A stretch of 64,000 bases of DNA from Candidatus Saccharimonadota bacterium (GCA_002746885.1 PDRS01000006.1:186001-250000); one strand, 5' to 3'; numbered from the stretch's first letter, positions 11,226 to 64,000 are shown. Numbers and translations: made by a program. Notes: a model not told the origin generated them from the letters alone.

Positions 11226-11280
11226 AAACGGTTACTTTTAGAGTCTAGCACGAGCATCACTACGCTAGATATAGTAATTT

Positions 11281-43181: not shown

Positions 43182-43197
43182 GGGGTTATTGTAGCAG
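43022..43197. repeat. Direct repeat copy 2 (176 bp)
   Basis: See copy at 42390-42565. Confidence 0.9.
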
Positions 43198-46173
43198 ATG
43201 GCGGACTTTTCGGTATACCAGCGGTACTAGCACCAAAACAACTGGCCCTGCAAAGTATGCGAGTTTGCTGTGTGCGCCACCTCCCGTTTCGCTGCGCTCA
43301 AAACCATTACCGAAAAGCGTCGATGTGCGAGCCTCGCTGTTCTTGGGCGTTTTTGGTTGCGTAAAAATACCGCCGTTTATTCCTGCGCCACCCTCTGCCG
43401 CAATGGCCGCCAAAAAGTCTGGGCGAGCACTGCGCGCCAGCGCACCAGTGTTCCGCGCGTTTTCTGCGGTTTTTATGCTGGTCCCAGCTTTTTTCTTGTT
43501 TTGCGCCGCAGCGTTTTCTTCTTGGCTTTCGTTTTCGCTCGGCACATACGGGACGGCGAGGTCTTGGCTGCCGTATTCGCCCCCGCCATCGCCCTCTGTC
43601 TCATCAAACGAAGCGGGTGCTTTGACGTGCCCTGGCTGCGTTTCGTCTATCAGCTCGTCTCGTAGCTCGCCGTCACATGCATCGTCGATACCGTCGCTAT
43701 CTTCGTCAATGCCGCTTGGGTCAACGAACAAACACGCCTCTTGATCGTTTTTTATACCATCGCCGTCAAAATCATCGGCATTTTCTGCCACAAAAACCAC
43801 TTGGCGCAAATCGATTGGCGCACCAGCGGCAGATGTGGTGTATATGTCGAGCGTATGAAATCCTGTCGGTGTACTTTCTGGTATCGCAAAGGTCGCAGGC
43901 ACGTTTTCGTCGTATACGCCTTCAAGTAAGGTTATCGGCTCCGACCGCAGGGTAATTTTCATAGTGGCACCGTGACGCACAGTGCCTTTCGGCAAGTTCG
44001 TTTGGTAGGTGCCGCCCCTTTTGAACAGTGTTGCGCCGCTGTCGGTCCATTTGATTACTCCGCGGGGCCTGAGCTGCTCTGGTGCATGATCAACGTTTTT
44101 CAGTAGCGCACTTGTATAGTCAAGATCTGGTTTGTTGTTTGGAATCGGCGTCGGCATAAGTTCCGTGAGATTGGTTGTGTTCGCAAGTATTCGGCGCGCA
44201 ATTAGCCGGTGTCCTAGTAGCGTAGGGTGGTAACTCTCGTTCCCTATGCCAACATTTACCGCGTATGTCTTCCCGCCTCCGGAGATTTGTATTGGCATGG
44301 TTAGCTTGTCATTGCCGTTGGTTAGACCGTTTACGCCGGCTGTGTTTTTGCTGGCCTCGCAAAGTCGATGGCCGTTGAGCGCAGCTTCGGTGTCGACATA
44401 GTATACCCCAGCTTCGGCAGTAGCCCGCTTAATAATGCTGTTGAAGTAGGTGATAAGCCTAGACGCAAACCGTACTTCGGCCGCATTGAAGCGTACATTT
44501 ACCCCGCAGTTTCCACCTTCTTTAAATATTTGCGGGTAGCCAACCACATACACCCGCGCACCACCGCTCTCTGCAAGTACGTCCTTATATGTTGCGACGA
44601 GGCGATCATACTGTCCGAGTATTTGCTCCATTACCTGTACGCGATCTTCGTAGTACTGGTAACAGGTCCCAACTATGCCGCCCGTAATACACGATGTCAG
44701 TATTTTTGCAAACCCAATGTCGTTGCCACCTATAGAGAGAAGGATGGTGCGGGGTTTGTATTTACGGGCAAAAATAGTTTGCTGCGCATAGCCGGGAGAG
44801 AATGAATCTATTACTTTGTTTTTGCCCCTTTTATTCCATTCTTTTTTATTCCCGACTTGCCCTTCGTAATCGTCCTCTCTCACAACCTCCCCCCTTGGGT
44901 CGCCTGCCGCTATACTCACGTCAAACAGCTTCGCGCCAGAGCAGGCGACAGAGCGGCCATGATGAAACTCTTTTGCGTTTATCCGAAATGGGTATGAATA
45001 CCATGAGAGATGGCATTTATTTTGCCTGGTATCGGTGCCAGTAAAGTACGTACCTGGCACACCCTCTCCAGAAATATACGAGTCGCCCATACCGAGTACA
45101 CCGACATACTCACGAGCGGTTTGTTTCGGCATGGTTACTTGGTAGCGAGCCACCTTAAACGAGGCTGGGCCAGTTCTGTCATATACCGTGTCGAAAGTCA
45201 TGACGTTATTTTTCACAAACCGAACGCGGCGAGGATATTCAGCCGTCGGCAATACATCGCGCAGGCCGCGCGTGTTGCCGGTGCGATACTCGCCGCTCCA
45301 AAGATCTTTGTATTCGCAGCCATTGTGCGCGGTCGGCTCGGTTTGGTTTGCGTGCTGATTGGGGCAAGTAAACACATCGTAGACGCGTAGCGCAGGACGA
45401 GTCGTACCATTGCTCGGTACCGAGAGTGTTACGGCGACGAACCGACCATTTTCGCTAATCGCGAGATTATTTTTCCCTCGGTATGCATTGGCGCTGGACT
45501 GGTACGAACCTGTATGCCAGGCGATGAGTTTTCCCCGCTTGTTTTCAAGATCATAGCGATATATCCCCTTACCGCTTACGATCGCTGCCATCCATTTACC
45601 GTTAGTTGCATAAGCTATATCTGTGCCCCTAAAATGCAGCGCCTCGCCATTGGGTGCTCGCAAAACAGTATTTGGCTGCTCGTGATGATACTGGTACTTT
45701 TTCGCAGGCGGCAGACCATAGTACGACACAAGTCGTAGCTGTGAGGCGCTGTATGTGCCGATCCTCAACAGATTTGCACCATCTATCCATGATCTCGGAT
45801 ACGTAGCCGTAATGAGCATATTGGGATGCCCTGGAATACTTGGCAACACATTGCCGCCATAGAACGGGTCATATGCATGCGTTCCGCTCGGACCATTCAG
45901 CAAAATGCTGTTTGCCATCAAGCCAAGCGGTGTTACATACTCACACGTATCTATAGGCATGGTGCTCGCACCGTTAGGCAGCTGAATGGGAATGCAGTCT
46001 TGACTCAGACTGAACGGCCCCTGGTTGTCTGGCAAGTCAGAAACTTTTTCGACCCTTGGTTCGACAGAACTTAGCCACATTGGCACTGGCGTACGAGACG
46101 CCCACGCCACTCCCCCGCCCGCCATAAGCGTAACGAGACAAAACACGGCCGACCACTGCTTTTTTAGTCGCAT
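43186..46173 (-). CDS. Surface-anchored SGNH/GDSL hydrolase with N-terminal WD-like region and C-terminal calcium-binding (TSP3-like) repeats
   Basis: GMGDSYISGEG; ILLSIGGNDIGFA; SYHPTLLGHRLIA; DFDGDGIKNDQEACLFVDPSGIDEDSDGIDDACDG; C-terminal TM and basic tail. Confidence 0.85.
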   Translation of the reverse strand: MRLKKQWSAVFCLVTLMAGGGVAWASRTPVPMWLSSVEPRVEKVSDLPDNQGPFSLSQDCIPIQLPNGASTMPIDTCEYVTPLGLMANSILLNGPSGTHAYDPFYGGNVLPSIPGHPNMLITATYPRSWIDGANLLRIGTYSASQLRLVSYYGLPPAKKYQYHHEQPNTVLRAPNGEALHFRGTDIAYATNGKWMAAIVSGKGIYRYDLENKRGKLIAWHTGSYQSSANAYRGKNNLAISENGRFVAVTLSVPSNGTTRPALRVYDVFTCPNQHANQTEPTAHNGCEYKDLWSGEYRTGNTRGLRDVLPTAEYPRRVRFVKNNVMTFDTVYDRTGPASFKVARYQVTMPKQTAREYVGVLGMGDSYISGEGVPGTYFTGTDTRQNKCHLSWYSYPFRINAKEFHHGRSVACSGAKLFDVSIAAGDPRGEVVREDDYEGQVGNKKEWNKRGKNKVIDSFSPGYAQQTIFARKYKPRTILLSIGGNDIGFAKILTSCITGGIVGTCYQYYEDRVQVMEQILGQYDRLVATYKDVLAESGGARVYVVGYPQIFKEGGNCGVNVRFNAAEVRFASRLITYFNSIIKRATAEAGVYYVDTEAALNGHRLCEASKNTAGVNGLTNGNDKLTMPIQISGGGKTYAVNVGIGNESYHPTLLGHRLIARRILANTTNLTELMPTPIPNNKPDLDYTSALLKNVDHAPEQLRPRGVIKWTDSGATLFKRGGTYQTNLPKGTVRHGATMKITLRSEPITLLEGVYDENVPATFAIPESTPTGFHTLDIYTTSAAGAPIDLRQVVFVAENADDFDGDGIKNDQEACLFVDPSGIDEDSDGIDDACDGELRDELIDETQPGHVKAPASFDETEGDGGGEYGSQDLAVPYVPSENESQEENAAAQNKKKAGTSIKTAENARNTGALARSARPDFLAAIAAEGGAGINGGIFTQPKTPKNSEARTSTLFGNGFERSETGGGAHSKLAYFAGPVVLVLVPLVYRKVRHLLQ

Positions 46174-48539: not shown

Positions 48540-48700
48540 AGTATAGCAAAGTTATCCCCCTTTTCCCAGTGTTTTCCACATTTTCTAAGGTGTTAGAAAC
48601 GCCTGTGGAAAACTATACCCCTTTTCGGCTCATTTTTGATGTCATGAAATAGTTGTAGAAAAAGCTGTGGAAAACTATGTCTGTTTTCGACTATAGTTAG
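48540..48700. other. Candidate oriC segment with DnaA-box-like repeats
   Basis: GTTTTCCACA 48571-48580, TGTGGAAAAC 48604-48613, TGTGGAAAAC 48666-48675, between rpmH and dnaA; further TGTGGAAAA sites at 50176 and 50408. Confidence 0.7.
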
Positions 48701-50142
48701 TGGTGATAGCGAACTCAGATAACGTTCGCAGCGAAGTGGAGAGTACCGTGCATACCGTCAACTATGATCAGTTGTGGCGAACCGTCCAGGGGGAGGTAGA
48801 GATTTCGCTTTCTCGCGGAAACTACATAACCTGGTTTAAAAACACGCGGCTTATTCAGGTTGATAAAGAGTCGGCCACGCTCGGCGTGCAAAATGTTTTT
48901 GTTAAACAGCAGTTCGAGGGTAAATATCGCGACATGGTGCTCCAGACACTCGCAAAAAACGGCGTGCACGTTTCGCGTTTGAATGTCAAAATTCAGCCAG
49001 TGACAAAAACTCGCGAAAGCGACGACGAACTCATCACCAACGCAGTGAATAGCGCGAAGACCGCGGCAAACTCAACCAGCACGCAACCTTCCGCGCGGCA
49101 AAGGAGCGGCCTAGCGCACGCCTATCGCCAAGGAGTGAACGAAAAATATCGTTTCGAAAACTTTATCGTCGGCTCTGGCAACGAACTGGCGTATGCTGCC
49201 TGCCAAGCCGTTGCGGCTGATTTGGGTAACAAATACAACCCGCTGTTTCTGTACGGCGGCGTTGGTATCGGCAAAACCCATCTTATACAAGCAGTGGGCA
49301 ACGAGATTTTAGCCAATCGACCAGGTTCGCATGTGGTGTATGTTTCGAGTGAACAATTTGTGCAGGAGTTTGTAGACGCCCTTCGTTTCAAAAAAAACAC
49401 CGACTTTGCCGACTACTACCGAGGTGCTGATGTTCTCATCGTAGACGATGTGCAGTTTTTGGCCGGCAAAGAAAAAATTCAGGAAGAATTTTTTCACACT
49501 TTTAATGCCCTTCACCAAGCGAACAAACAAATCATTATAAGCAGCGACAAACCACCGAAAGATATTCCTACACTCGAAGAGCGTCTACGTAGCCGTTTTG
49601 TGTGGGGAATGAGTATAGATATGCAAAACCCAGACTTTGAAACTCGCTGCGCCATCATTCAGTCAAAGGCGGAGGAAAAGAATATTTCCCTTCCGCATGA
49701 TGTTGTTGAATATCTCTCTACCCAGTTTCAGACCAATATACGAGAACTTGAGGGCGCGCTCAACCAGGTGCTCGCGTTTTGCGAAATGCGCGGTCTTGCA
49801 CCAAACCTGGCGATTGTGAGCGGGCTTTTAGGTTCGGGTCGAGGCCGCCCAAAACACCTTAGTGCGCGGCAGATCATTGAGCGCTGCGCAAAGTACTACC
49901 AAGTTGCTGTCGAGGATATGCTCGGACCGAAACGAGATAAAGACATTGTCACACCAAGGCAGATTGCCATGTATCTACTGAGGAGCGAGTTACACCTGAG
50001 TTTTCCAAAAATCGCCCAAGAGCTTGGCCGCAAAGACCACACCACCGCGATTCATTCTGTTGAAAAAATAGAAAAAGAAACTGATCTCAACCCAGCTATA
50101 CGAACCGCCCTTGCGGACATTAAGGAGCGATTATATGCGTAG
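48700..50142 (+). CDS. dnaA: Chromosomal replication initiator DnaA (GTG start, 48700 or 48703)
   Basis: NPLFLYGGVGIGKTHLIQAVGNEI; DVLIVDDVQFLAGKEKIQEEFFHTFNAL; domain IV GRKDHTTAIHSVEKI. Confidence 0.97.
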   Translation: MVIANSDNVRSEVESTVHTVNYDQLWRTVQGEVEISLSRGNYITWFKNTRLIQVDKESATLGVQNVFVKQQFEGKYRDMVLQTLAKNGVHVSRLNVKIQPVTKTRESDDELITNAVNSAKTAANSTSTQPSARQRSGLAHAYRQGVNEKYRFENFIVGSGNELAYAACQAVAADLGNKYNPLFLYGGVGIGKTHLIQAVGNEILANRPGSHVVYVSSEQFVQEFVDALRFKKNTDFADYYRGADVLIVDDVQFLAGKEKIQEEFFHTFNALHQANKQIIISSDKPPKDIPTLEERLRSRFVWGMSIDMQNPDFETRCAIIQSKAEEKNISLPHDVVEYLSTQFQTNIRELEGALNQVLAFCEMRGLAPNLAIVSGLLGSGRGRPKHLSARQIIERCAKYYQVAVEDMLGPKRDKDIVTPRQIAMYLLRSELHLSFPKIAQELGRKDHTTAIHSVEKIEKETDLNPAIRTALADIKERLYA

Positions 50143-50424
50143 CTTCTGGGTTTTGTGGAGGGTGTGGGGGTGTTTTGTGGAAAAAACCTGTGTTTTTGGT
50201 CGGTTTTTCCATAAAACAACTGCGCGGTGTTTTTTGCCTGTGGGAACGTTCGTGTCTTTTCCCCGCGTTTTCTCACAGTCTATCCGTGGTTTTCTCCACA
50301 TAGCTCATAGTAATTTCACCACTGTTTTAGGGTATTTTTCCACTTTTTCCCCAGGCCTAATAATAAGAATAGTTTTGTATAAAAAATATAGTTTATATAG
50401 TAGAGCGTGTGGAAAGGATGGTAT

Positions 50425-51516
50425 ATGAAACTAAAAGTTACTCAAGAAAATCTCTCGAAGGCACTTGGATATGTTGCGCGCGTCGCGAACAACCGAGGGA
50501 CGCTCCCTGTTCTTGCAAACGTTTTGCTTTCTATAGAAAACAACCGCCTAAAACTAGCGACGACAAATCTTGAGATTGCAATCTCGTGCACAATAGGTGC
50601 ACAGGTGCAAAACGAAGGAACAATAACAGTTCCTGCTCGACTATTTCAAGAACTTGTATCTGGGCTGCCGAGCGGTGTTATAGAGCTTGAACAAGATGAG
50701 CAGCGCTTAAAAATCTCAGCAGACCAATACAAATCAGTTATAAACGGCGTGAGTGCCGATGAGTTTCCAGTTATGCCGGCGATAGAAAAGGGCGCGACAC
50801 TTACTATTTCTGCGCAAACTATGAAAGAGGCGCTGCAACAGGTTTTGTTTGCTGCATCGAATGACGAGAGTCGGCCGGTTTTGACGGGTGTATGCGTGCG
50901 TTCACGGGATGGCGCGCTATATTTTGCTGCAACCGACAGCTATCGTTTGGCCGAAAAGAAGCTACATGAATTGAATCAGGATATTGCGGTGTTGATTCCG
51001 GCGTCTGCTCTTCATGATGTTCTTCGGGTGATTTCAGATAAAGATGAAGATGTCACTGTGTTATATGACGAGCAACAAGCATTGTTTACAGTGGGCGATG
51101 TGGAGATTGTAGCGCGTCTTATAGAAGGAAACTACCCAGACTATCGAAAACTAATTTCCTCAACATTTCAGACGACAGCGACGCTTTCTCGCGCCGAGTT
51201 TGTGAACATCGTAAAAGTCACGAGTTTATTTGCTCGCGAAAGCGCCGGTAGCGTGATGGTGAATGTGGACGAAGCGAGCAACAGTATATGGGTTCGGGCG
51301 GTTGCTTCACAGCTTGGGGAAAACAACGCGACCACCTCAGTAAAAGCCGAGGGTAGCGGTTCGATCACACTAAACTCACGCTATCTCCTGGAGGCGCTGC
51401 AAGCGATGAACGGAAAAGACGTCACAATTGGCTTTAACGGCAAAATAGAAGCCGTACTGCTCAGCGACCCCACGGAAGATGACTACAAACATATCATCAT
51501 GCCTCTGAAGAGCTAA
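50425..51516 (+). CDS. dnaN: DNA polymerase III beta subunit (sliding clamp)
   Basis: MKLKVTQENLSKALGYVARVA...; RPVLTGVCVRSRDGALYFAATDSYRLAEKK; downstream of dnaA. Confidence 0.95.
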   Translation: MKLKVTQENLSKALGYVARVANNRGTLPVLANVLLSIENNRLKLATTNLEIAISCTIGAQVQNEGTITVPARLFQELVSGLPSGVIELEQDEQRLKISADQYKSVINGVSADEFPVMPAIEKGATLTISAQTMKEALQQVLFAASNDESRPVLTGVCVRSRDGALYFAATDSYRLAEKKLHELNQDIAVLIPASALHDVLRVISDKDEDVTVLYDEQQALFTVGDVEIVARLIEGNYPDYRKLISSTFQTTATLSRAEFVNIVKVTSLFARESAGSVMVNVDEASNSIWVRAVASQLGENNATTSVKAEGSGSITLNSRYLLEALQAMNGKDVTIGFNGKIEAVLLSDPTEDDYKHIIMPLKS

Positions 51517-51517
51517 A

Positions 51518-52153
51518 CTAGTACGCGTTTACCGCGTCGAGTACGGGTATGGGTATATCTTTGGTGTTGTATTTAGTGAACACTAGTTTTGGTGTGCCTA
51601 CCAACTGCCAAGAGTCACCGTCTTTTTTGATAAGAACTTTCAAGATGTCAGTATCACTATCCCCGGCTTGATCTTCGGTTGGTGTGAGGGTTGATATATA
51701 CCACGTGCCATGGTCGCGGAGTGTTCCCTCTGCTAAAACGTAGCTAGACCCGTTTTGAATATTACTAAACACAGCCTGCGAAAGAGCTTCGCGGTTTTCT
51801 TTGAGTATCATCTTGATTTTTTCTTTGGAATATTCTGGGTTTATGACAACTGTGTCGCTAGCACCATTTTCGAACCCATCGGCGTAGCCGGGTGCTCCGT
51901 CGTAACGCACAAACACAGTTAACTCTTTTTGTATACGAACACTGTCGCCGCTTTTCTGTATGCGAGCGATTTCTTTCTCGGTAACTCCAGCTTGTGCACC
52001 AGAAACATCGACAACACGAACGTTTTTAGCGTTCTTGAAAGAAACGGTTAGTACTCGAGTTGAGGATATGTGTCGAAAATAAACAAATCCAACCACACCT
52101 AAAATAATGAAAGGAACAGCGATTAGTACTAGACGAAATTTGCGGCGCATCAT
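51518..52153 (-). CDS. Hypothetical membrane-anchored protein
   Basis: N-terminal TM (FRLVLIAVPFIILGVVGFVYF); adjoining the PEGA-like gene. Confidence 0.65.
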   Translation of the reverse strand: MMRRKFRLVLIAVPFIILGVVGFVYFRHISSTRVLTVSFKNAKNVRVVDVSGAQAGVTEKEIARIQKSGDSVRIQKELTVFVRYDGAPGYADGFENGASDTVVINPEYSKEKIKMILKENREALSQAVFSNIQNGSSYVLAEGTLRDHGTWYISTLTPTEDQAGDSDTDILKVLIKKDGDSWQLVGTPKLVFTKYNTKDIPIPVLDAVNAY

Positions 52154-52764
52154 TACTGTTTTTCTCCTGTTGTGGGGTTAACGAAATCATCAAAGCGGAT
52201 ATCGAGTTCACTGAGTTTATAGCCGGAGTCTTGCAACCACTGGAGCGCCTTTTGTCTGCCGGCTGCTGTGCTGTTGCCGATGAGGAGATAGACGCTGTTA
52301 TCATCTTTGAGCCCATAATCAATACTGTATGGGCCAGCAATTTCATAGTGTGGTAGTAGAGTAGTGATGGGTGATTCGTCGCTGATACTCTCGCCGATAA
52401 TATTGGCCATTTGCCCAGCATAGGCTTCGCGGCGAGCCGTTGTGTCGTTTTGGTTTGCCCATTCTTTGGCGCTTTCCGAAATGGGTCGGGGCGCAAAATA
52501 CAAATCAGTCGTTTTTAGTGAAACAGATACGACGTGCTTCTCTGTTTCAAAACCTTCTTTGCTAGCCGCGAAGGTGTGAGCGCCGGGTTTTAGGAAAATA
52601 CTTCCGCCGGCATCCTTGCCATCTACGCTGAATGTTACATCTTCGGGGAGCGCATGGAGGTTGACGCGTATTTTTCCGGCGTTTGACGATGAATTGAGTA
52701 GTAAAACAACCACCAGACCGACTACACCTATAACAAGGAGAAGTTTTGCTTTTATATTATTCAT
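52153..52764 (-). CDS. PEGA-like domain membrane protein
   Basis: IRVNLHALPEDVTFSVDGKDAGGSIFLKPGAHTFAASKEGFETEKHVVSV. Confidence 0.75.
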   Translation of the reverse strand: MNNIKAKLLLVIGVVGLVVVLLLNSSSNAGKIRVNLHALPEDVTFSVDGKDAGGSIFLKPGAHTFAASKEGFETEKHVVSVSLKTTDLYFAPRPISESAKEWANQNDTTARREAYAGQMANIIGESISDESPITTLLPHYEIAGPYSIDYGLKDDNSVYLLIGNSTAAGRQKALQWLQDSGYKLSELDIRFDDFVNPTTGEKQ

Positions 52765-54754
52765 TGCTGCCTCCTATGTAACGATAAATATGATCCGCCG
52801 TGAGCGGGTTTTCTCTTCCTGCCATTGGTGATCGCCAGCTTCTACCACCACGACCGCCGATCGAAGCTGACGCGACAGCTGTTGCGAACTCAGCGGGGCT
52901 ACCGTCTGCGTTTGAGCCGGTTTGGCCTGGTCCAACATATATGAATGTGTGTCCCTCACCCTTACTGATGGCAATGTCGCCTGGTTGTAGGTCGGCGGTT
53001 GTTTCGACATCAATTTTTCTATACAAACCACTTTTTTGTATATGTTCATGTTGGCGTTCGACGTTTCCGCCGCCACCGTATTTTGGATCGACACCACTAT
53101 CTCGCATGACGAGCGTTACAAAACCACCACAGTCAACACCGGGCTTTGCAAGAGTACCCACATACCGACCGCCCTCTTTTAGTGCGCTCTTTACAGCCGA
53201 CTCGTATGACGGTTTGAGTTTGGTGTATGGCGGGGATGTGTAGGTCGGCCAGGCGTAGTTAAGCGCGGTTTGCACGGCATCGCCTGCTGCCGCGCCAGAG
53301 CATCCTTCGGAGTTTGACCGAGAGGCGTCCTTTGCGGGGCGAACTGCTCGCATAATCCCATCAGCAATACCCTTTGCGTATATGTCGGTATTGAAGCCTG
53401 TCTGTCCGACTTCGTTATATATCCAGGGTACCTTCGAAAGAAGCTGCACAACGGGTAAATTACCAGCGGAGAGCCCTGGTCTTCCATCAAAGACGATGTC
53501 GTGTATCTTTGCTCCAGGTTCCCCCGCCGCCTTTCGTGCGGCTACCATCGCCTGCGCATAGGCTTGGCTTTTTTGAGCGAGTGCTTTATCTTCAAAAACC
53601 GTTTTTTTGCCGTTTTCATTCGTTCGGTAGTTGCCTACTTTTTGCGGCGACACCCAGGAGGAGGAGCCGCCGAACTTTCCTGGTGTGTTATGTATGCTCA
53701 CGGCTATGGCAGCATTTGCTTTGTTGGCTATTAAGGCACGTTGCTTGAGGTTAACGTAGTCTTTTTCTGATTTTTTTGTCATAATAACGGTGTAACCTTT
53801 TTCTTCGAGAGTTTTTTTGACTTTTTGTGCAACTTCCCATACCTGTTTGCGTTCGGTGGGGTTTGAGCTGTCGCCGATGTATAGGCCGGTTTCGGAGTCT
53901 TTCTCGGCTCCCTGTTTGTCTATGCCGGAATGACCAGGGTCAAGCACAACCTTTCCGGCGCTCCCACGGAGCAAGGAGTCATCCGATACGCACTCGCAGC
54001 CCGTGCTGGCGCTTATGGTGGTGTTTCCTGTTTTGGGGTATTTCAGGGCAATTTGGGCGGCCTTGAAGCGTTCGGTATAGGCTTTGTCTCCCGCACCCTC
54101 CATGGTTATTTCGTAGTATTTTACTGCCTCCATAAGGTCTGTTTGCGTAAACCCAGCAAGCATATTCATGTGGGCCGTGGGGCTTCTGTTGTTCATGTGC
54201 CACCACACAAGGTCAAGCTGTGTCTGTAGTTCGTATATTGGGCCGGTTATACCGGCATCCTCGGCGGCTCTTATGACTTTGCGGGCGGGTGTCCACTGAA
54301 TAAGTCCCCAACCGCCATTTGCGGGGGTTACTTCATTTGGGTCTTTTGTGCGGTCTGGGGTGAACTTGGTTTGTGTGTTTTGCGGGTCTCCTGTCGATTC
54401 GCGCGCGATATTGCCAATGATGGCTGCCGCCTGAATATCTGTCAGAATCGGATTGCCGTTGGCGTCTTTTTTCGAAAGAAAATAGTTATAAGCCTGCTCA
54501 AGGTTTTTTTGGAAATCGCTTGAGGTGACAACAGACCCCGCCGAGCTTTCGCCACAGGAATTAGCGCTGTCTGGCACCCAGTCCTCCCAGCCAAACTTCA
54601 ATGCTTGGCAGTCTAGGTCTGACATTCCGCTTGGGCAGTCTTCCACGGCAACCGCTGGCGGCGCCATAGAGAGAGTGGTAATTATAAGCATACACAATGC
54701 TACTCCAATATACTTAACTCGCTGAAAAAACATTAGCTCCCTCCTCCTGCACAA
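52757..54754 (-). CDS. Three-domain peptidoglycan hydrolase: phage-tail-lysozyme-like + amidase_3 + NlpC/P60-like
   Basis: IIGNIARESTGDPQNTQTKF..GGWGLIQWTPARK; VVLDPGHSG..IAVSIHN; VDCGGFVTLVMRDSG..GHTFIYVG; signal peptide. Confidence 0.85.
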   Translation of the reverse strand: MCRRRELMFFQRVKYIGVALCMLIITTLSMAPPAVAVEDCPSGMSDLDCQALKFGWEDWVPDSANSCGESSAGSVVTSSDFQKNLEQAYNYFLSKKDANGNPILTDIQAAAIIGNIARESTGDPQNTQTKFTPDRTKDPNEVTPANGGWGLIQWTPARKVIRAAEDAGITGPIYELQTQLDLVWWHMNNRSPTAHMNMLAGFTQTDLMEAVKYYEITMEGAGDKAYTERFKAAQIALKYPKTGNTTISASTGCECVSDDSLLRGSAGKVVLDPGHSGIDKQGAEKDSETGLYIGDSSNPTERKQVWEVAQKVKKTLEEKGYTVIMTKKSEKDYVNLKQRALIANKANAAIAVSIHNTPGKFGGSSSWVSPQKVGNYRTNENGKKTVFEDKALAQKSQAYAQAMVAARKAAGEPGAKIHDIVFDGRPGLSAGNLPVVQLLSKVPWIYNEVGQTGFNTDIYAKGIADGIMRAVRPAKDASRSNSEGCSGAAAGDAVQTALNYAWPTYTSPPYTKLKPSYESAVKSALKEGGRYVGTLAKPGVDCGGFVTLVMRDSGVDPKYGGGGNVERQHEHIQKSGLYRKIDVETTADLQPGDIAISKGEGHTFIYVGPGQTGSNADGSPAEFATAVASASIGGRGGRSWRSPMAGRENPLTADHIYRYIGGSNE

Positions 54755-57700
54755 CGACTACTACTTTGGATTGGATCCCAGTGCCATGACTCGCCCGCAA
54801 GCTGCCGAAATCCGTACTTTTCCGCATTATTATACAACCAGTTCCACACAGGGCTGCTCGGGTCTTTTACCCTATTATTACAGCTAGCGCCCACAAGCTT
54901 TATCCCCGTGCCAGCAAAGTCTATCGCGATACCCATCTGGTGATTTGAATCCCCGGGCTTGGCGACGGCGTAGTACGAGTTGCGGTTACATGAATTGTTT
55001 CTGTAGCAAGCTCGGCAGGCGGCGTTATTGTCGCATAGCTCAATAGAGTGTTGCATAGAGCGGTACCCGCTTGCCGCAGAAAGCGTGAGCCCCGAAGCTT
55101 TTGCGTCTTTGAACATTGCAACAGTGTTTGCCGAAATGCGTGCATTTACGACAAGATCTCCATGCGCACCCACAACACCACCCCCTCCATTACTCTCCGA
55201 CGAGGTGCTTTTGAAGCCTGAAACCGCACAAATACGAATCGGTATTTTCTGGCCGTCGTTGTAGCCGTCTACGATACCTAGGTCTCGCGTGCCGTCTGCA
55301 CAGCCCAAAGATTCTGAGCTCGCAAACAACTCAGACTGGTCAATGCTCGAACTATTGCTGTCTATGCTTGTCGTACCGGCGAACGACCCTGTTGGTAGCA
55401 GACCCGCATCAAACATGCCGCCAGCAGAGCTCGCTATTGAACGTATGAGTAGGCACGGCTCGGGTTTATTTGGGGTAGCTTCACCTGTGTCTGGATCCTG
55501 TTCCATACTGTCGAGGAATTCCTTTTCAAAACTACGGTTGGCGCACCGGTCGTTCCAGTATTTTTCTGGGTCGCTTGGGATTTCGGAGGCACCGTAGCCG
55601 AAATGTTTTACGCCGAATGGACTCGATGTTCCGGTCGTTACGGCATTGGCTTTTTGGGCGGAAAAAAGACTTCCCAGACCAGCTCCGAGTCGTTGCGCTG
55701 GCCCTGTGAATAGACTTGCGATGCTCGCGGAGGGTATGCTAGAGCGTGCCGGTAAGCGTAGCGCCAACTGAGAAGTCAGCGAATATGGGGTTTCTGTGCT
55801 CGTTAATCTTGCTAGCAGTGATTTTTCTCGGAAGTTTGCTCGTTCGTCGGCTAGATACTGGTTCTGAATCCGTGTATACGCCGTGTTGGTGATTGGGGCG
55901 GCTCCAGTTTCTAGCATAGCCGCTTTTTCGAACGTTACTTGAGCTCCTGCGGTACTCATCGCTAAAATTCTGCCGCCACTTAGGTTTAGAAAAGGATTGG
56001 GTTTTAGGTGGTCGATGATCCACTGAACGGCGTCACCGATATGCTGTTTTCCCCAGTCGAGAAGAGTCTTGCACGGCCCAATACAGGTCTTTTCGAAGGC
56101 TAGGTTTGCGACTCCGCCGACCCCATCCTCGATTAACAGATATATATCGTTGATTCCGTTGAGCACAGCATCGTTCACGGCCATAAAATTAAAGTAGCCC
56201 TCCACGAAGGGGTTGTGGCGTACGTCGTAGGCTACGTTTGCGGCGTCGCCTGCATTTGTGAAATCTTCCTCGGGGCAGATTTGCATGCCTTGTGGAATAG
56301 GGTTGCCGTCATCGCAAATAAATCCAAGTGAGTTTGGTGCCTGCGCAGAAGCAGTGCCGATAAGCCGCCCGAAAGACGTGAAAACATTATTTTGCGCGAC
56401 TGTTTTTCCGAAATAACTTTCGTATATTGGATGCGTAGTCATGTCCTGCCCTTCGCTGAGCGTATCGGCGAGCGAGCCTGCTGCGGTAAGGTCTATGTTT
56501 CCGCTCTTTAGTTCTCCTGCAGAGCTTTGATACATCGCAAACATACTGGCCGCTGTAGCGGCATTTGTCTCATATGACATATACTTCATGAAAGCTGGCG
56601 CAGTGCTAACAAAGTTTTTTATACTAATGAGCAATGAAATTTGTCCGGCATATGGTATAACCTTCCCGATTGCCTTTCCTGTGGCCTTGCCAGCGGTCTC
56701 AAAGCCAAGTTTTTGACCAAGTTTTTCGCCAATTTTACTAGATAAATATCCACTAAAACCAAGCTTATTGATATCTTTCGCTCTTGTGACTAGTGTGCCT
56801 AACTTTTCAGCCCCCGGACCTCGTATATATGCCTTGAGTTTTGTGTCGAGCTCCCTATGAAAACGGGATTTTGGTTCTTCTCTAGGGTCTGTGGACGGGG
56901 TGATAGTTGCGTCGCAAAAATCTGGATCCATGATACAGTCAATTAGTAGGCCGTATGTTTCACCGGCAACCCCCGAGACTTTTTGCGTAAGCCATAGTTT
57001 ACCGGCGAGGAGCTTGGCTTCTTTTTTATCTGTAAATTTATCTCGAATATCACACGCCATGAGGCAGCGTTTTACGTGGAAACGTCTCTCCAGCAGCTTG
57101 CCATACTGATAGCGTTTATAGGTTTTGTCCCATAAGGTTCCTTCTCTCAGGGCGGTATTTATTGCTCGACGAATGTCGCTCCGTTTCACTTCCTTTGCGT
57201 CAAGGTCAAACAGAGATATCTCGCCCTTTTGTAGCTTGAGGAACTGAGCATCATTCCCTATACTGTGTCCGTTCACAGTCATATAAAACTTGTTAGTTTT
57301 TGTGTTTTTACCAATTATTATGCCGTGCTTTTTCCCAAGCTCCTGCTGGAGCTTACTTTGAGACCAGGCTTGGTACATTTTTGCAATTGGGGTCGTACCT
57401 GAAACAACAACAACGCACCCAGGGTCTATGCTTTTTTTGCACCCAGGGGTGCCAAGAGCTCGCATAACGTGCTTCCCGAGGTATACGCCGAAGGCATTGC
57501 TAATGCCCCTTTGCATGGCTTCTTGCGTTGAAGCCATAGCTTTTCCCTCAATCATGCCCACGAAGGATCCCACTTTAAGGGGTAGCATCAGGAAGAAGAT
57601 AAGAGCGGCGCTGCCTCCACCAACCCCCGCCGCCGCTGTAGCAACAGCAAGCCGTTTGCGGATATTTGACTTACCCTTAAAGCTCTTTGCGAGTCTATCG

Positions 57701-58005
57701 TCTTTCTGTGAGCCTTTTCCGGTAAAGCCTAAGCCAAGTCGTTCCTGGATGTCTCCGAGGGCGCTGTTGCCGTATTTGCTATCTGGTCTTTCCTCTTGGT
57801 CTTTCAGGTCTTTGGCTCTTGCGGCCGTCTCTTTCCTCCATTTTCGCGGATCCCACCAGGGTGCACCCGGCTGCTCTGCGCTACTGGGGGCGCCGGGTGT
57901 GTTGCTGTTTTCTGGGGGTCTGTCGTGGACCTGCGTCGGCTGAACACCTGGATCATTATGGTCGTCGGGGGTGTTATCTTGTTGTTCGTCATCGTAAACT
58001 GACAT
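54733..58005 (-). CDS. Large membrane protein with C-terminal VanY-type D,D-carboxypeptidase domain
   Basis: ASGYRSMQHSIELC...GDSNHQMGIAIDFAGTG...ESWHWDP zinc-ligand motifs; N-terminal TM region after an acidic/proline-rich tail. Confidence 0.85.
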   Translation of the reverse strand: MSVYDDEQQDNTPDDHNDPGVQPTQVHDRPPENSNTPGAPSSAEQPGAPWWDPRKWRKETAARAKDLKDQEERPDSKYGNSALGDIQERLGLGFTGKGSQKDDRLAKSFKGKSNIRKRLAVATAAAGVGGGSAALIFFLMLPLKVGSFVGMIEGKAMASTQEAMQRGISNAFGVYLGKHVMRALGTPGCKKSIDPGCVVVVSGTTPIAKMYQAWSQSKLQQELGKKHGIIIGKNTKTNKFYMTVNGHSIGNDAQFLKLQKGEISLFDLDAKEVKRSDIRRAINTALREGTLWDKTYKRYQYGKLLERRFHVKRCLMACDIRDKFTDKKEAKLLAGKLWLTQKVSGVAGETYGLLIDCIMDPDFCDATITPSTDPREEPKSRFHRELDTKLKAYIRGPGAEKLGTLVTRAKDINKLGFSGYLSSKIGEKLGQKLGFETAGKATGKAIGKVIPYAGQISLLISIKNFVSTAPAFMKYMSYETNAATAASMFAMYQSSAGELKSGNIDLTAAGSLADTLSEGQDMTTHPIYESYFGKTVAQNNVFTSFGRLIGTASAQAPNSLGFICDDGNPIPQGMQICPEEDFTNAGDAANVAYDVRHNPFVEGYFNFMAVNDAVLNGINDIYLLIEDGVGGVANLAFEKTCIGPCKTLLDWGKQHIGDAVQWIIDHLKPNPFLNLSGGRILAMSTAGAQVTFEKAAMLETGAAPITNTAYTRIQNQYLADERANFREKSLLARLTSTETPYSLTSQLALRLPARSSIPSASIASLFTGPAQRLGAGLGSLFSAQKANAVTTGTSSPFGVKHFGYGASEIPSDPEKYWNDRCANRSFEKEFLDSMEQDPDTGEATPNKPEPCLLIRSIASSAGGMFDAGLLPTGSFAGTTSIDSNSSSIDQSELFASSESLGCADGTRDLGIVDGYNDGQKIPIRICAVSGFKSTSSESNGGGGVVGAHGDLVVNARISANTVAMFKDAKASGLTLSAASGYRSMQHSIELCDNNAACRACYRNNSCNRNSYYAVAKPGDSNHQMGIAIDFAGTGIKLVGASCNNRVKDPSSPVWNWLYNNAEKYGFRQLAGESWHWDPIQSSSRCAGGGS

Positions 58006-58013
58006 TTTTTCAC

Positions 58014-59945
58014 CTATGAAATATTATTTGCGCTTCCTGGGTATAGTTGATTTTGAAGGTCTATGGTACCTTGCGTCTGATCCAGGCTGCCCTGCTTCAT
58101 TGCCTGGATTTGCTGGGGGTTTGTGGTGATAAGACCGGTTTCGGTAGGGCTGGCAACCACTTGAATGTGGACGTGGTTCTGTCCAGCAAAGAATAGACCC
58201 TGCCCCACGGGGAACTGTCCAAGCCGTTTCTTTTCTTCTTCGGTGAGCTTGAAAACATCGGCCAGCACGTCGACAGCGCTACTCGACTGCTTCAGGAGCA
58301 TCTGCATGCTGGCGTTCGCGACGATGGCGCGACCCATGCGCGAGCCCATGAAGTCTTCCACGTCTTGGGTAATGGTGGTAATGCCCAGGTTGTATTTGCG
58401 CGCCCGCTTCGCGAGACTAAAGAGAAAGTTTGCGCTATCTTCATATTTCATGAGCTGCCAGGCTTCATCAACGACCAAAATTCGTTTTTTCTGATCGCCT
58501 TTTGTCTTGTTCCATATGTAGTTTAGTACTATGTACATGGCAACTGGCCGCAGTTCATCTTCGAGGTCGCGAATATTAAACACCACCAGAGGATTGTTGA
58601 TATTGATATTACTTTGTTGACTGAAAATACCCGCAAAAGTGCCGCTTGTATATTTGCGTAGGCGTTGTGCGAGTTGTGGGCCAGTTCCGCCCATGTGAAG
58701 TAATGTGTCGTAGAGGTCAGTAATGGTGGGTGGTACGGATGAATGTGTGAGTGGGTCTTGGGTGATACCCGCTTTGGCGTAGGTGTCCATGAGTGCGGCG
58801 TCTAGATCGGCTTCTTCTGCGGGCGAGAGAGCGGGGGCGAGTGTGTTGTTGCCGCCAAGCAGTTGGGCTTGTGCTCCCCCCATCATGAGGCGCAGTAGTC
58901 CGTGTAGCGTGATGAGGTTTGAGCGCAGGGCGTTATCGGCTTCTTCATCGCTGTCAACTGCTCGCGGCAGGTCAAATGGGTTTATGCGTGTGGTTGAGTT
59001 TAGGCTGAGACGGACATACGCACCGGCGACGGCGTCGCACATTCGCTCGTATTCGTTTTCTGGGTCGATGATGAAAATTTCAGTGCCAAACATAAGGCTA
59101 CGCAGCGCTTCTAGTTTTACGGTAAAGCTCTTTCCTGCGCCAGATTTTGCAAAAACCACCGAATTGCCATTTTCCAGACTGAAACGATCAAATATGACGA
59201 GGCCGCTGTTATGCATGTTTATGCCGTATAAAATACCGTTGTCCTGGCTGAGGTCGGCACTCGTGAACGGAAAGCTCGTGCTGATAGCGCCGGTGCTCAT
59301 GTTGCGGCGTATTTGGAGCTGATCAAGCATTTGTGGGATGACGCTGTTTAGGCCCTGCTCCTGTTGCGAAGTGGCTGGTTTGCTGTAAACGAGCTGTTGG
59401 CCGAGCATACTTTCCACTTTATGGCTGACAAACTCAAGCTCTTCTTGGCTGCTGGCATATATCGTGAAATACAAACCAAAGCGGAAGAAGCGCTCTTCGC
59501 CGACCTGGAGTTTGTCGCGCATTTCTTCGGCGTCAAGTATGGCGGCTTGCTTGCCAGGATCGCGTACGCGGCCTTTTTCTGAATCTATTTGTAGGCCAGC
59601 TTCTAGTTGCGTCACCTTTTTCCGCAAGTTTTCTAGCACAACCTGACTTTCTACGGGGTATACATAAATGGACAGATCCATCACCTCGTCGAGGTTTACC
59701 AACCCGCTCAGCCAACCAGTGTATATCTGTCGCGGATAGCCGTAAACGTAATATGTTCGGGCAAAACGAGTGCCAAGTCTGAAAAACGAACTGGAAAACT
59801 CCAAGCTGCTTGGAGCAATGAAGTCTCTCAGGGCGGTAATACCTTTACGGAAGGCTTCATTTACCTCGGCCTGCTCCTTTGCTTGCTGTGCCTGCGCGAG
59901 CGCAACTGGATCTACTGGCGGCTGCTTCTTTTTACCAAACAGCAT
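58014..59945 (-). CDS. virB4: VirB4/TraC-like type IV secretion ATPase
   Basis: VVFAKSGAGKSFTVKLEALRSLMFGTEIFIIDPENEYERM; RILVVDEAWQLMKYEDSANFLFSLAKRARKYNLGITTITQDVEDF. Confidence 0.92.
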   Translation of the reverse strand: MLFGKKKQPPVDPVALAQAQQAKEQAEVNEAFRKGITALRDFIAPSSLEFSSSFFRLGTRFARTYYVYGYPRQIYTGWLSGLVNLDEVMDLSIYVYPVESQVVLENLRKKVTQLEAGLQIDSEKGRVRDPGKQAAILDAEEMRDKLQVGEERFFRFGLYFTIYASSQEELEFVSHKVESMLGQQLVYSKPATSQQEQGLNSVIPQMLDQLQIRRNMSTGAISTSFPFTSADLSQDNGILYGINMHNSGLVIFDRFSLENGNSVVFAKSGAGKSFTVKLEALRSLMFGTEIFIIDPENEYERMCDAVAGAYVRLSLNSTTRINPFDLPRAVDSDEEADNALRSNLITLHGLLRLMMGGAQAQLLGGNNTLAPALSPAEEADLDAALMDTYAKAGITQDPLTHSSVPPTITDLYDTLLHMGGTGPQLAQRLRKYTSGTFAGIFSQQSNININNPLVVFNIRDLEDELRPVAMYIVLNYIWNKTKGDQKKRILVVDEAWQLMKYEDSANFLFSLAKRARKYNLGITTITQDVEDFMGSRMGRAIVANASMQMLLKQSSSAVDVLADVFKLTEEEKKRLGQFPVGQGLFFAGQNHVHIQVVASPTETGLITTNPQQIQAMKQGSLDQTQGTIDLQNQLYPGSANNIS

Positions 59946-60024
59946 CAGAAGCTCCTCCCATAAGACAGCCTATGGCGACTGTCGCTTGTTCGAAACCACA
60001 TATCGCTTAGCTGTCTAGCTATCA

Positions 60025-60909
60025 TCATTCCATTTCCCTCTGTAGGTGTTGTTGTGTTGCCCTGCCCTCGCCTTTTTGTATGACTTCGGCAGTGAGGTCG
60101 TTGAAGTTTTTGAGCTGCTGTCTTGTGGCGGTGTCGGGGTTGTAGGTGTCGTAGTACAGCTCTATGAGCTCTTGGGTATCGAGCGGTAAACCCTGCACGC
60201 CGCACTGTTGGAGGCCGCCCAATACTGCCTGAACGCGGTTGCGTAGCTCATCTTTTGCTTTTACAAGGTCTGGTTCGTTGATGACGACGTGACTTTCTGC
60301 TTTGTTAAACAGCTCAATAAAGCCGCTAAAGAAGTTTTTGCTCTGCGTGATCGCCGCCTGTCGCGAATCAGCATTTGGTTCGTACGGTATAACCACATAG
60401 AATTTTTTGTCCATGATGTTGGTTTGCAGTGCAAGTTGATCAATGTAGCCGATGTAATCATCCATCAGTAGGGCAAGAAGCATGTTGTCGTGTTCGGTGC
60501 GGATTTTGTCGAGTTTCTCTATGTATGGCTGAAGGTCAACTTTCTGTGAGCGAACAAAAATTTGGATAGGAAAATAGAGCGAATTCAAAAACCCCTGGTA
60601 AGCGTACTCGGTGCTTTCTTGCTCCTGGGCGCTCATAAGATCAAAGTTAATGCTTTTGACCATGACAACTGCTCGGTATGTTCCGTCGTTCATAATGACG
60701 ATACCGTCGCGAATTTCGGCAATCTGGAGCGCGTTTTGTGTGCTGTTTTGGTTGCTCTTTGGTTTGGTGGCGGCTGTCGGTGGGGTTTGCTGTTGTACGT
60801 TGCCCGCTTGCGTTGCTTGTGTCTGCGGTTGCGGGGCTGGGGGCGACGCATAACCTGTAGGAGGGACTGGCGGTGGTTGAGTTGGGTATGGTTGCTGATC
60901 TGGACTCAT
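60025..60909 (-). CDS. TraC/VirB4 N-terminal-like protein (T4SS cluster)
   Basis: IRDGIVIMNDGTYRAVVMVKSINFDLMSAQEQESTEYAYQGFLNSLYFPIQIFVRSQKVDL. Confidence 0.7.
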   Translation of the reverse strand: MSPDQQPYPTQPPPVPPTGYASPPAPQPQTQATQAGNVQQQTPPTAATKPKSNQNSTQNALQIAEIRDGIVIMNDGTYRAVVMVKSINFDLMSAQEQESTEYAYQGFLNSLYFPIQIFVRSQKVDLQPYIEKLDKIRTEHDNMLLALLMDDYIGYIDQLALQTNIMDKKFYVVIPYEPNADSRQAAITQSKNFFSGFIELFNKAESHVVINEPDLVKAKDELRNRVQAVLGGLQQCGVQGLPLDTQELIELYYDTYNPDTATRQQLKNFNDLTAEVIQKGEGRATQQHLQREME

Positions 60910-60926
60910 AGTGTATACCTGCTAGT

Positions 60927-62075
60927 TTAGCGTAGAGGGATCACGACCTCGCTGTTATCGGTTTCGTCTTTATGGACCTGCCGGGCAATTGTCGCTAGGT
61001 CTAGGTCGTCGTTGCTTGCCAGACTTTTTATTATAGCAGCCTGTCTTTCTGAAGTCATTTGTGCTTTTGCTTTTTCTGCTTGTTGTGCGGCCTGTTCGGC
61101 GGCTCTTTGCTGAGCGGCTGCTCGTGCGTCTGCGGCGATCTCATCGGGTGTTTTTATGTGTTTGAGGTGGTCGTTGGCTATAGTTTGATTGCTACTCTCG
61201 GCTTTTAGTTTTTCGACAAGAGCTTTTTCTTCGGCGGTTGGCGTTGCGGCCTGCGGAATGGGCAGTGTTTCCGTGGCGGCTGTGCTACCCGGTGCGACAA
61301 CGGTGCTGTTCGCGAAGGTTGCTTCATTGGGTGCGGGTTGCGGCTGGTGCATGAACCAATAGTCGTTTGGTGCGGCAGACGGAGTTTGTTGTGGGGTTTG
61401 GGTTTGTGGGGCGGCGCTGTCTGGCTGGTTTGGCGCCCGCATTTGTTGCAGCAGTTTCTGTCGTTGGGATGCGGCTGCGTTTTGTATCATCGAGTCGAAT
61501 TGTTGTGCGACAGGGCTTGTGTCTGTATCGAGCATGTCATCGTCAGCGCGAACGTCAACTCCGCTTACGTCCTGCGGTAACATCGAGGCGTCTACGAGCC
61601 GGTCAGATGCGGCGTAGCTGGGCTGTACGGCGCTCAGATTGACGTTGACGTTCTTGACTGCCCAGCCGCGGCTGTCAATGGTGTCTGCTAGGGCGTGGAG
61701 CCGGCTGCGTACTTCAGTCTGGCTGAGCCCGCTCGAGAGACTATGTTCAACTTTTTTTGGTACGGTTATGGTTACGAGTTCTTTTGCACCGCTTTGATCC
61801 CAGATGCGCTTGCGCGGTTTCACGAAAAACCGCAACTTTGCTATGGCCCACACCTCTGTTGGTTGGTCGCTGCGCCATGGGATAGCTAAAAACGCGGCAA
61901 AAAGCGCCGGAGGTACAAAAAACAGCAGCAAAAACCCTAAACTTTTTGTAGTTGCCCAAAAAGACAGATACAGCAAAAACGCCGCTATGGCAGCGTAAAT
62001 AAACTGCCGCAGCGTTAGTCCGCCGACAATTTTGTCTTCTGCCTCAACATCCTGGAGTACTTTATACGTTGCCAC
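60927..62075 (-). CDS. PrgI family T4SS membrane protein
   Basis: ATYKVLQDVEAEDKIVGGLTLRQFIYAAIAAFLLYLSFWAT; likely GTG start at 62075. Confidence 0.8.
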   Translation of the reverse strand: MATYKVLQDVEAEDKIVGGLTLRQFIYAAIAAFLLYLSFWATTKSLGFLLLFFVPPALFAAFLAIPWRSDQPTEVWAIAKLRFFVKPRKRIWDQSGAKELVTITVPKKVEHSLSSGLSQTEVRSRLHALADTIDSRGWAVKNVNVNLSAVQPSYAASDRLVDASMLPQDVSGVDVRADDDMLDTDTSPVAQQFDSMIQNAAASQRQKLLQQMRAPNQPDSAAPQTQTPQQTPSAAPNDYWFMHQPQPAPNEATFANSTVVAPGSTAATETLPIPQAATPTAEEKALVEKLKAESSNQTIANDHLKHIKTPDEIAADARAAAQQRAAEQAAQQAEKAKAQMTSERQAAIIKSLASNDDLDLATIARQVHKDETDNSEVVIPLR

Positions 62076-62209
62076 AATATAAGTATAACCGATAATCATT
62101 GTGACGGTGAATAGCTATGTAACTGGCTGGTCTGATTTTCGCAAATACTCAAAGGGACGACGATCGCCATGTTTGGCTTGTTAAGCTTACGCTGGATTTA
62201 GGAGGAGCC

Positions 62210-64000
62210 TCAAGGCCCTCCCTGTCCTTGACCTCCTGGACCCATTCCGGCATTTGCCGCTGCGAGAGCTGCGGTAAGCTGGGCATTTTGATTCATCCAT
62301 TCTTTGCGTACATCGTGGAATGCGGCGCTTCTTGCGTCGAATGCTGCCTGTGCCTGTTGCTGCTGCTGTTGTTGTTGTTGCGTCAGAGGGCCCATGAACG
62401 GCTGCGGTAGCTGCCCGCCAGTTCGCAAGGCTTCTTCGAATTCTCGGACGCTTACGCCAGTGTTTCCTGCGGGAACAGAAGTCAACAGGTCTGCGAGAAG
62501 GCGCTTATTCTCTGGGTTATAGTAGTTTATCGAATCGCGAAGACTGGCAACGTTAGCCGTTGCACGACCAATAGCAGTATTGTCGCCGCTGGCGAGTGCT
62601 GCGTTGAGTCGACGCGCAAAGTGATTGGCAAAACCCTCGATCGTTTCGTGTCTCGCGCCAGCTAGCTGACTGGGCTGCAAATACTGTGCGGCAGAGTCGA
62701 ACATGTCAAACGCATCTGTGTTTGTGGCTGCACGCCCCGCTCCGTTATCATATGTAGCCAGATCATGTATTCGGTTAATACCTGTGCCGTAGCTAATGTT
62801 GCTAAACTCCATCCGTTGGGATTGTTTAATGATGCCCATTGCTTGCATGTCTGACATGTGGCCCCGTCTGACCATATCGCTTGTGTCGTTAAGCAATTCT
62901 TTCATGCCTTCTTCGCCTTCGTCGTATCCAGTTTTCGAGAGCACGCGGGCTGTCCATGCGGCCGTTTGCATCGTGCGCGTACCGAGTGCCGCGCCGCTGC
63001 CTTGTTCTAGGATTGCGAGAGCTTGTTGGGCTTGCTCCGCGGTTCTTTGTTCTCCTCTTCTTGCAGCTTCTGCTATGTAGCGCTCATTCCAGTTTTCGCG
63101 CGTTGTGCCCTCCCTGTGTGCTACTGCGAGTGCATAGTCGTCATTAATCCACTGTAGTCTGTTGTTTTTGATGGCTTCCATTGCTGCCGTCGTGCTCCGG
63201 TTTGCACGAATCATTTGACGTCCTTCGGCCGAGCTGAGCTTACGGAGTCCGACTCCGGGTTCTTTTGCGGCATCGGCATATGCCAAGCTATTTCCAATAA
63301 CGCGACCCAAGCCGCTCTGTCCTCTTAGGCCTGTGGCATATTCACCCTTTCGGCGCTGGAAAGATTCTTGGCGGAACTTTCTGGCGCGGTCGAATAGGCC
63401 GCGGCTTTTGTCGTTTGCGATGGAGAATATTGTCGTCATGAGGCCGCCGGCAAGCTTAAAGGCGAATGGAAGCATAAAGTACGGTGCGAAAAAGATCAGC
63501 AAAGCGAACAAATTCAGAGTGTTGCTCCCATCACCAGATGCGGGTTCTCGGGATGCTTGGGCTAACATGCGCGAAAGCGCTTCTCCAGAAGCAAGAAACG
63601 CCATAATAATTGGGAACATCGCTAGTGTTGTGAGCAGAGTGTTCTTCCAAAAACCCCACAGCTTTTGCGTACCGGGGAGGATATAGGCCGCCATTGCTAT
63701 GGGCGCCAGCAGTACGCTTGCTATAATGATGACCTGTCTCACGCTGAGCACCAGTAAGCCAATGAGCAGGGCGAGTACTATTGTAAACAAGAGTGAAAGT
63801 ATCCCTGCCCAACCTAGTATCACGGCTCCAACCAATAAAGCCGCGCCGCTTGCGCCGACAAGGAATCTCTCCAAAACGCCATTAATGATACCTGAGCCGC
63901 TCAAGCCTGCTTCGTAGCCAATGTTTTGAAATGGTTTGACGATAATGCTGTGCGCCCATAACCCCAGGTCGTTAAACAGTACGATCATTGCCTGCAAGAG
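62210..64000 (-). CDS. VirB6/TrbL-like T4SS membrane protein, 5' end runs off the window
   Basis: Multiple TM helices; LASGEALSRMLAQASREP; FFAPYFMLPFAFKLAGGLMTTIFSIANDKSRGLFDRARKFRQESF; Q-rich tail. Confidence 0.75.
   Translation of the reverse strand, partial: LLQAMIVLFNDLGLWAHSIIVKPFQNIGYEAGLSGSGIINGVLERFLVGASGAALLVGAVILGWAGILSLLFTIVLALLIGLLVLSVRQVIIIASVLLAPIAMAAYILPGTQKLWGFWKNTLLTTLAMFPIIMAFLASGEALSRMLAQASREPASGDGSNTLNLFALLIFFAPYFMLPFAFKLAGGLMTTIFSIANDKSRGLFDRARKFRQESFQRRKGEYATGLRGQSGLGRVIGNSLAYADAAKEPGVGLRKLSSAEGRQMIRANRSTTAAMEAIKNNRLQWINDDYALAVAHREGTTRENWNERYIAEAARRGEQRTAEQAQQALAILEQGSGAALGTRTMQTAAWTARVLSKTGYDEGEEGMKELLNDTSDMVRRGHMSDMQAMGIIKQSQRMEFSNISYGTGINRIHDLATYDNGAGRAATNTDAFDMFDSAAQYLQPSQLAGARHETIEGFANHFARRLNAALASGDNTAIGRATANVASLRDSINYYNPENKRLLADLLTSVPAGNTGVSVREFEEALRTGGQLPQPFMGPLTQQQQQQQQQAQAAFDARSAAFHDVRKEWMNQNAQLTAALAAANAGMGPGGQGQGGP

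Follow-up and report, generated by a model that had tools for sequence, protein, structure and literature searches.

We describe here a Saccharibacteria locus in which a conserved T4SS engine is joined to a variable outer layer, with modular enzyme tails, discrete replacements and mosaic sharing between species. The window, by which we mean the whole 64,000-nucleotide stretch analyzed (G000:C11:186001-250000), belongs to a 1.06 Mb genome in 17 contigs that is 96.85% complete. The explanation that we favor, and that we consider probable, is that a monoderm T4SS has been co-opted and that recombination diversifies its outer wall-cutting layer, plausibly in keeping with host cell walls.

The cluster is sited near dnaA-dnaN, adjoining the replication origin. 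On the minus strand the order is VirB6 (cut at the window end), PrgI/VirB3, TrsD, VirB4, a giant protein, a hydrolase, p203 and p211, with dnaN and then dnaA following on the plus strand at the downstream side. All of the genes that the initial annotation had assigned to a T4SS-like cluster (VirB4, a TraC N-domain-like protein, PrgI, a VirB6-like protein and a giant protein with a VanY end) are found on the minus strand. The features are:

48700-50142, plus strand: dnaA, conserved flank close to the replication origin
50407-51516, plus strand: dnaN, conserved flank
51518-52153, minus strand: p211, with a TM segment, a beta domain and an alpha/beta C-terminal domain
52153-52764, minus strand: p203, with a TM segment, a PEGA-like domain and a conserved C-terminal domain
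52757-54733, minus strand: secreted peptidoglycan hydrolase, 658 aa from the ATG at 54733, with Phage_lysozyme2, Amidase_3 and NlpC/P60-like modules
54733-58005, minus strand: giant T4SS-linked protein, 1090 aa, with a scaffold at about residues 90-837, a TM helix near 125-152 and an exchangeable tail
54804-55151, minus strand: VanY/M15B carboxypeptidase tail domain of the giant, residues 953-1067 (PF02557, 57 bits, cut-off 25, E=2.6e-15)
51518-58005, minus strand: hypervariable cassette (giant, hydrolase, p203 and p211) between conserved flanks
58014-59945, minus strand: VirB4 ATPase, 643 aa (NCBIfam NF045971, conju_CD1110, 361 bits, cut-off 325)
60025-60909, minus strand: TrsD-like (TraC-N-like) protein, 294 aa, a split-off N-domain of a VirB4-type ATPase (NF041427, NF045975, NF045971)
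60927-62099, minus strand: PrgI/VirB3-like protein, 390 aa (PF12666, 49 bits, cut-off 27, E=7.7e-13)
62210-64000, minus strand: C-terminal part of a VirB6-like polytopic membrane protein with TM segments, whose 1017-aa gene runs on upstream past the window

The T4SS cluster runs on past the end of the window, where the remaining part of VirB6 is joined by one lipoprotein-like gene and, on the plus strand, five pilin genes. These five form a VirB2-like pilin array; all match PF18895 above the cut-off and one has two pilin stretches. The TrsD-like protein matches NF041427 at E=1.3e-5, below the curated cut-off, and also the N-terminal part of the VirB4 profiles NF045975 and NF045971, both below cut-off, and it stands beside VirB4 in the same position throughout the class. 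The window VirB6-like protein has no Pfam match, and its putative identity is based on synteny, on topology and on PF04610 (TrbL/VirB6), which 2 of 25 relatives match.

Homology of VirB4, PrgI, TrsD and the pilins to conjugation parts raises the question of whether the locus is an integrative conjugative element with wall hydrolases as incidental cargo. The genome has no PF03432 relaxase in a search whose control worked (a PF13814 search, in which the control stayed silent, is left out of account), and its sole integrase-family protein is a Xer-like recombinase on another contig. No tRNA gene occurs in locus L002 or in the last 20 kb of the window, and two tRNA-Ser genes are located on the far side of comF, about 7 kb outside the window; GC content is uniform, the neighbors are only housekeeping genes, and the position next to dnaN-dnaA is fixed throughout the class. 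A coupling protein was not found within the cluster, and a VirD4-like homologue of 1007 aa is encoded on another contig (C4), adjoining gyrA and gyrB. The initial annotation had proposed searching the flanks for VirD4 and relaxase genes, and had named a nearby relaxase or oriT with an integrase, or a lack of conserved synteny, as grounds for abandoning its reading; with synteny conserved, no PF03432 relaxase, and no tRNA gene or integrase in the locus, these tests fail to refute it. On the relaxase, integrase, tRNA and GC evidence we reject a conjugative element, which we regard as very improbable. A chromosomal, non-conjugative, monoderm-type T4SS of Saccharibacteria is instead part of the explanation that we consider the probable one as a whole.

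The synteny that the initial annotation had suggested examining is conserved across Saccharimonadia. We sampled 80 genomes of the class, and took 60 loci from whole genomes and 80 from named genome records. VirB4 is present in 77 of the 80 sampled genomes, with a class-type copy in 75 by our own count, which leaves out G063 and G069. The recurring order in the fetched loci is pilins, VirB6, PrgI, TrsD, VirB4, giant, hydrolase, p203/p211, dnaN and dnaA, and the next co-directional gene after virB4 is the scaffold gene in 113 of 138 loci. A chance arrangement is ruled out by the repetition of the same order throughout the class. In gut lineages the giant is often away from virB4, with extra scaffold copies elsewhere, and tailless scaffold copies adjoin VirB6 paralogues and pilins. 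As a separate observation, a RecF-like gene lies between p203/p211 and dnaN in most relatives and is missing in the window.

The conserved scaffold of the giant is about 700 aa long and belongs to no Pfam family; neither profile nor fold comparison found a relative in the PDB, and its structure model is of low confidence (pLDDT 67.8). Searched with a profile of the scaffold, 74 of the 80 Saccharimonadia genomes contain the giant; the same profile among 177 genomes of other classes gave no substantial hit, with five marginal ones covering fewer than 100 positions each. By these profile searches the giant is a Saccharimonadia-specific family. It co-occurs closely with class-type VirB4: 74 genomes have both, five have neither, and one assembly has only a contig-end VirB4 fragment, such that the giant is missing exactly in the genomes lacking class-type VirB4 plus the one with the fragment.

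The C-terminal domain of the window giant resembles the M15B carboxypeptidases VanYB and LdcB in sequence, in fold (match probability 1.0) and in its zinc-ligand motifs. The motifs HQMGIAID and ESWHW have intact zinc ligands, and the underlying HxxGxAxD and ExWH patterns align with VanYB. Other giants carry other enzymes on the common scaffold. Because a local-profile domain label can be wrong for weak tails, we take Pfam tallies as the reference, and among 95 tails these give 21 M23, 21 VanY, six DNase-like EEP (which come together with M23), three M74 and two CHAP, together with single occurrences of M14, Amidase_2, GDSL and others. A recognized domain is absent in 27 of 102 tails (about a quarter) and 12 giants are practically tailless, and thus an enzyme tail is not obligatory. 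Mapped on the VirB4 tree of 102 loci, tail class changes 47 times as against a mean of 64 in shuffles; it is partly inherited and often replaced. The window itself illustrates this, with a VanY tail as opposed to the M23 tail of its VirB4 neighbor L126, whose VirB4 is 90% identical.

The stop codon of the giant overlaps the ATG of the hydrolase in the sequence TAATG at 54735-54731, so the two genes are probably translationally coupled, and this ATG at 54733 is the likely start in preference to a TTG at 54754. The hydrolase matches Phage_lysozyme2 (E=7e-20), a tail-lysozyme family, and Amidase_3 (E=3e-18), and its NlpC/P60 module is below cut-off at E=0.03, with relatives reaching E=1.2e-5. The amidase motifs DPGH, SIH and NEVG are present and align with solved enzymes, and RES (lysozyme) and DCGGF...GHTFIY (NlpC) are also seen in the sequence. 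The three wall-cutting modules that the initial annotation ascribed to a secreted protein are thus recognizable, the third of them below cut-off, but the protein lies outside the interval 54733-63997 that was given for the cluster. Its N-terminus has a hydrophobic segment followed by an AVA-like site, which fits an anchor or a signal peptide alike. Across the class (n=86) the second protein carries Phage_lysozyme2 (53), C39 (13), CHAP (13), GDSL (11) and M23 (10), as well as amidases, NlpC, SLT, glucosaminidase, GH3 or GH43; judged by its predicted domains, it is as modular as the giant. The p203 family has 87 proteins in the fetched loci, and p203 gave no match in a Pfam search. We considered p211 as a candidate VirB8; its structure model (pLDDT 88.6) has no significant match in the PDB, with VirB8-like OrfG and NTF2-like folds at E of about 0.4 and probability <0.2.

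Variability across the locus is sharply partitioned. The window shares DNA homology with its genus-mates in PrgI-VirB4 and in DnaN-DnaA, and little or none in 51518-58005. For locus pairs with VirB4 identities of 94-97%, median identities are 89% for DnaN, 84% for TrsD and 73% for PrgI, as against 49% for VirB6, 33% for the giant scaffold and 35% for the hydrolase. The pair L094 and L095, from one genus, shows the pattern most plainly: DnaA is 100% identical, DnaN 99%, VirB4 98%, TrsD 92% and PrgI 89%, whereas VirB6 is 40%, the giant 35% and the hydrolase 33%. Their DNA is homologous from PrgI up to a point some 105 bp within the giant gene, shows no homology over the next 4.5 kb, and is homologous again (91%) where the cassette ends. 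Judged by the flanks L095 is nearest to L094 and not to L244, yet the hydrolases of L095 and L244 are 82% identical and their DNA homology is unbroken onward to dnaA, with different giants. Several giants are closest to those of more distant species; that of L094 is 49% identical to that of L088 (VirB4 93%) and only 35% to that of L095 (VirB4 98%). Over 100 loci, the rank correlation with VirB4 similarity (rho) is 0.88 for TrsD and PrgI, 0.86 for DnaN, 0.49 for the giant and 0.23 for the hydrolase. The argument for exchange is carried by these correlations and by the breakpoints and not by nearest-partner agreement, which by itself is weak since even the control genes' nearest partner agrees with VirB4 in just 44-47%. 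We reject an assembly artefact as the source of the divergence because in the four decisive genomes the contigs that enclose the locus measure 296-796 kb and its reading frames are intact, and because the pattern recurs in many genomes. Very fast divergence could account for part of the low cassette identities.

These features suggest how such a system might work. The cytoplasmic ATPases are highly conserved, and the layer expected outside the membrane (the giant and its tail, the hydrolase, p203/p211 and VirB6) is a hypervariable mosaic in which one common scaffold bears different enzyme tails by exchange. The giant would be a membrane-anchored T4SS component presenting at the contact site a domain that cuts the wall or, in some cases, is a nuclease, and the neighboring hydrolase would cut glycan strands and stem peptides in the manner of a Gram-positive VirB1, making room for a channel or pilus through the wall of the epibiont, the host or both. 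Cassettes may be swapped by homologous recombination between related genomes, for which the conserved flanks virB4 and dnaN would serve as guides, with the DNA probably acquired by the natural competence known in these bacteria (PMC10633639). Selection would come from the diversity of host walls, and by swapping its cassette a lineage would be able to switch to other host envelopes. We infer from this an attack on the host wall and a role in host-range control. Points against this explanation are the giants whose tails are missing or unrecognized, the detached or multiplied scaffold genes of gut lineages, the low-confidence scaffold model, the partial inheritance of tail class, and the share of the low identities that very fast divergence could explain.

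Two other accounts of the wall-cutting layer deserve consideration. The hydrolases might serve only the epibiont's own wall, making a VirB1-like hole for T4SS assembly, with their diversity reflecting neutral drift of secreted proteins. In Gram-positive VirB1 proteins, which work on the wall of the donor, glycan-cutting and peptide-cutting activities are indeed paired (PMC12857230), and the predicted extracellular glycan and peptide cutter encoded with the window T4SS has that layout. However, the walls of sister species should differ little, and yet such species exchange enzyme classes; drift would not be expected to produce discrete breakpoints or mosaic sharing, and nuclease tails have no obvious role in opening the epibiont's own wall. 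We find this account doubtful.

The T4SS might alternatively export the scaffold as a carrier, in the style of polymorphic toxins, with the tail delivered into or onto a neighboring cell. A scaffold that stays constant at the N-terminus and carries interchangeable enzymes at the C-terminus, among them the DNase-like EEP with M23, would be consistent with this, as would the extra scaffold copies unlinked to virB4, and the TM7x genes of this system have been called putative effectors (PMC10768705). However, inspection of the genes that follow the tails reveals no immunity gene; these are the hydrolases and p203/p211, none of which tracks tail type, and both the location directly after virB4 with its co-occurrence and the tailless copies beside VirB6 paralogues and pilins suggest a machine part. 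We consider export as a toxin unlikely, and favor recombinational diversification of a wall-cutting layer on a co-opted T4SS.

The function of the essential Saccharibacteria T4SS has been described as completely unknown (PMC11665869), and among oral isolates strain-level host range did not follow phylogeny and was described as possibly fast-evolving (PMC9040727). We tentatively propose that the giant-hydrolase cassette may be a Saccharibacteria host-range locus, in which lineages exchange the outer wall-attack tip of the essential T4SS by recombination, such that cassette type and not phylogeny would predict the actinobacterial hosts whose walls can be opened. With its small size, clear limits, recombination and exchangeable wall-cutters, the cassette is a testable candidate both for T4SS function and for the determinant of which bacteria can serve as hosts. 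Cassette type is also a marker that genome sequences reveal and that can be set against host panels already measured.

The system, a T4SS of the Patescibacteria (MPF_FATA-like) type, has close published counterparts. Southlakia epibionticum has an essential T4SS of this composition, in a cluster without recognizable coupling or relaxase proteins, and is naturally competent (PMC10633639, PMC12102498). Its T4SS (SEML1_0006-0019), along with the Patescibacteria VirB4 clade, has in common with the window VirB4, TrsD, PrgI, a putative VirB6 and a VirB2-like pilin array, together with peptidase and lysozyme genes after virB4, a site near dnaA and no relaxase. The operon noted in oral TM7 (VirB4, VirB6 and a MepM-like peptidase), with VirB4 conserved and VirB6 variable, is the same operon (PMC7739484). 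The initial annotation's reading of the locus as a cell-wall-penetrating secretion machine therefore holds up in part, on synteny and on the absence of a PF03432 relaxase, but is not new as it was put, since the T4SS, its essentiality and the downstream peptidase and lysozyme genes are already published (PMC10633639, PMC12102498, PMC7739484). VanYB and LdcB are resistance or housekeeping enzymes, whereas VanY here is the C-terminal domain of a 1090-aa protein. PrgK of pCF10, TraG of pIP501 and Orf14 of Tn916 are likewise multi-domain hydrolases encoded with a monoderm T4SS, but here there are two proteins, one of them built on a 700-aa scaffold for which no relatives are known, and species have exchanged the domains. 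Like the giant, polymorphic toxins and phage tail-tip lysins join a constant carrier to exchangeable C-terminal enzymes; in contrast to polymorphic toxins, immunity genes are not seen here and the carrier is linked to, and co-occurs with, a T4SS ATPase. The passages of the S. epibionticum accounts available to us describe no class-specific scaffold family, tail swapping or recombining cassette (PMC10633639, PMC12102498), and those of the oral TM7 account report no variability of the peptidase-bearing protein, its scaffold or breakpoints (PMC7739484). As far as these papers show, what is new in the open-access literature is thus a class-specific scaffold with swapped tails, a modular hydrolase beside it, and the recombining hypervariable cassette that contains them both.

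The end of p211, one of the two small membrane proteins encoded after the wall-cutting hydrolase, directly abuts dnaN in the window (51516-51518), which lacks the RecF-like gene that separates p203/p211 from dnaN in most relatives. In gut lineages (loci L225, L227, L231, L235, and L236), dnaN is adjoined by a short scaffold gene without a tail, and the slot after virB4 is either lost or filled by the hydrolase. Two further features of the window are:

11117-11247, minus strand: cobalamin riboswitch match, 32.6 bits, barely above the gathering score of 31.5
43186-46173: secreted protein of 995 residues, close to the origin region, that has SGNH/GDSL-like motifs; a membrane segment lies at its C-terminus

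Scaffold paralogues with no recognised tail adjoin VirB6 paralogues at three loci (L220, L229, and L233), with pilin genes also present at L229 and L233, and these associations suggest that some lineages have a second T4SS-like cluster. Among the pilin genes at L003, one (3561-4727; 388 residues) has two T4SS_pilin stretches, a fused double pilin. Several genomes encode an additional, distant VirB4 (38-40% identity), which is the sole VirB4 of genome G063; one search places an in-frame TGA in two copies, although another, with a shorter match, finds none. Examples of these copies, among others, are:

G068, contig C1, 148387-150084: distant VirB4
G063, contig C1, 554480-556177: distant VirB4

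In six giants, the T4SS scaffold bears M23 along with either one or two domains of the EEP type (DNase I/phosphatase-like):

L080, L083, L084, L085, L147, L167: EEP plus M23 tails

It is possible that these giants provide a route to host nucleotides.
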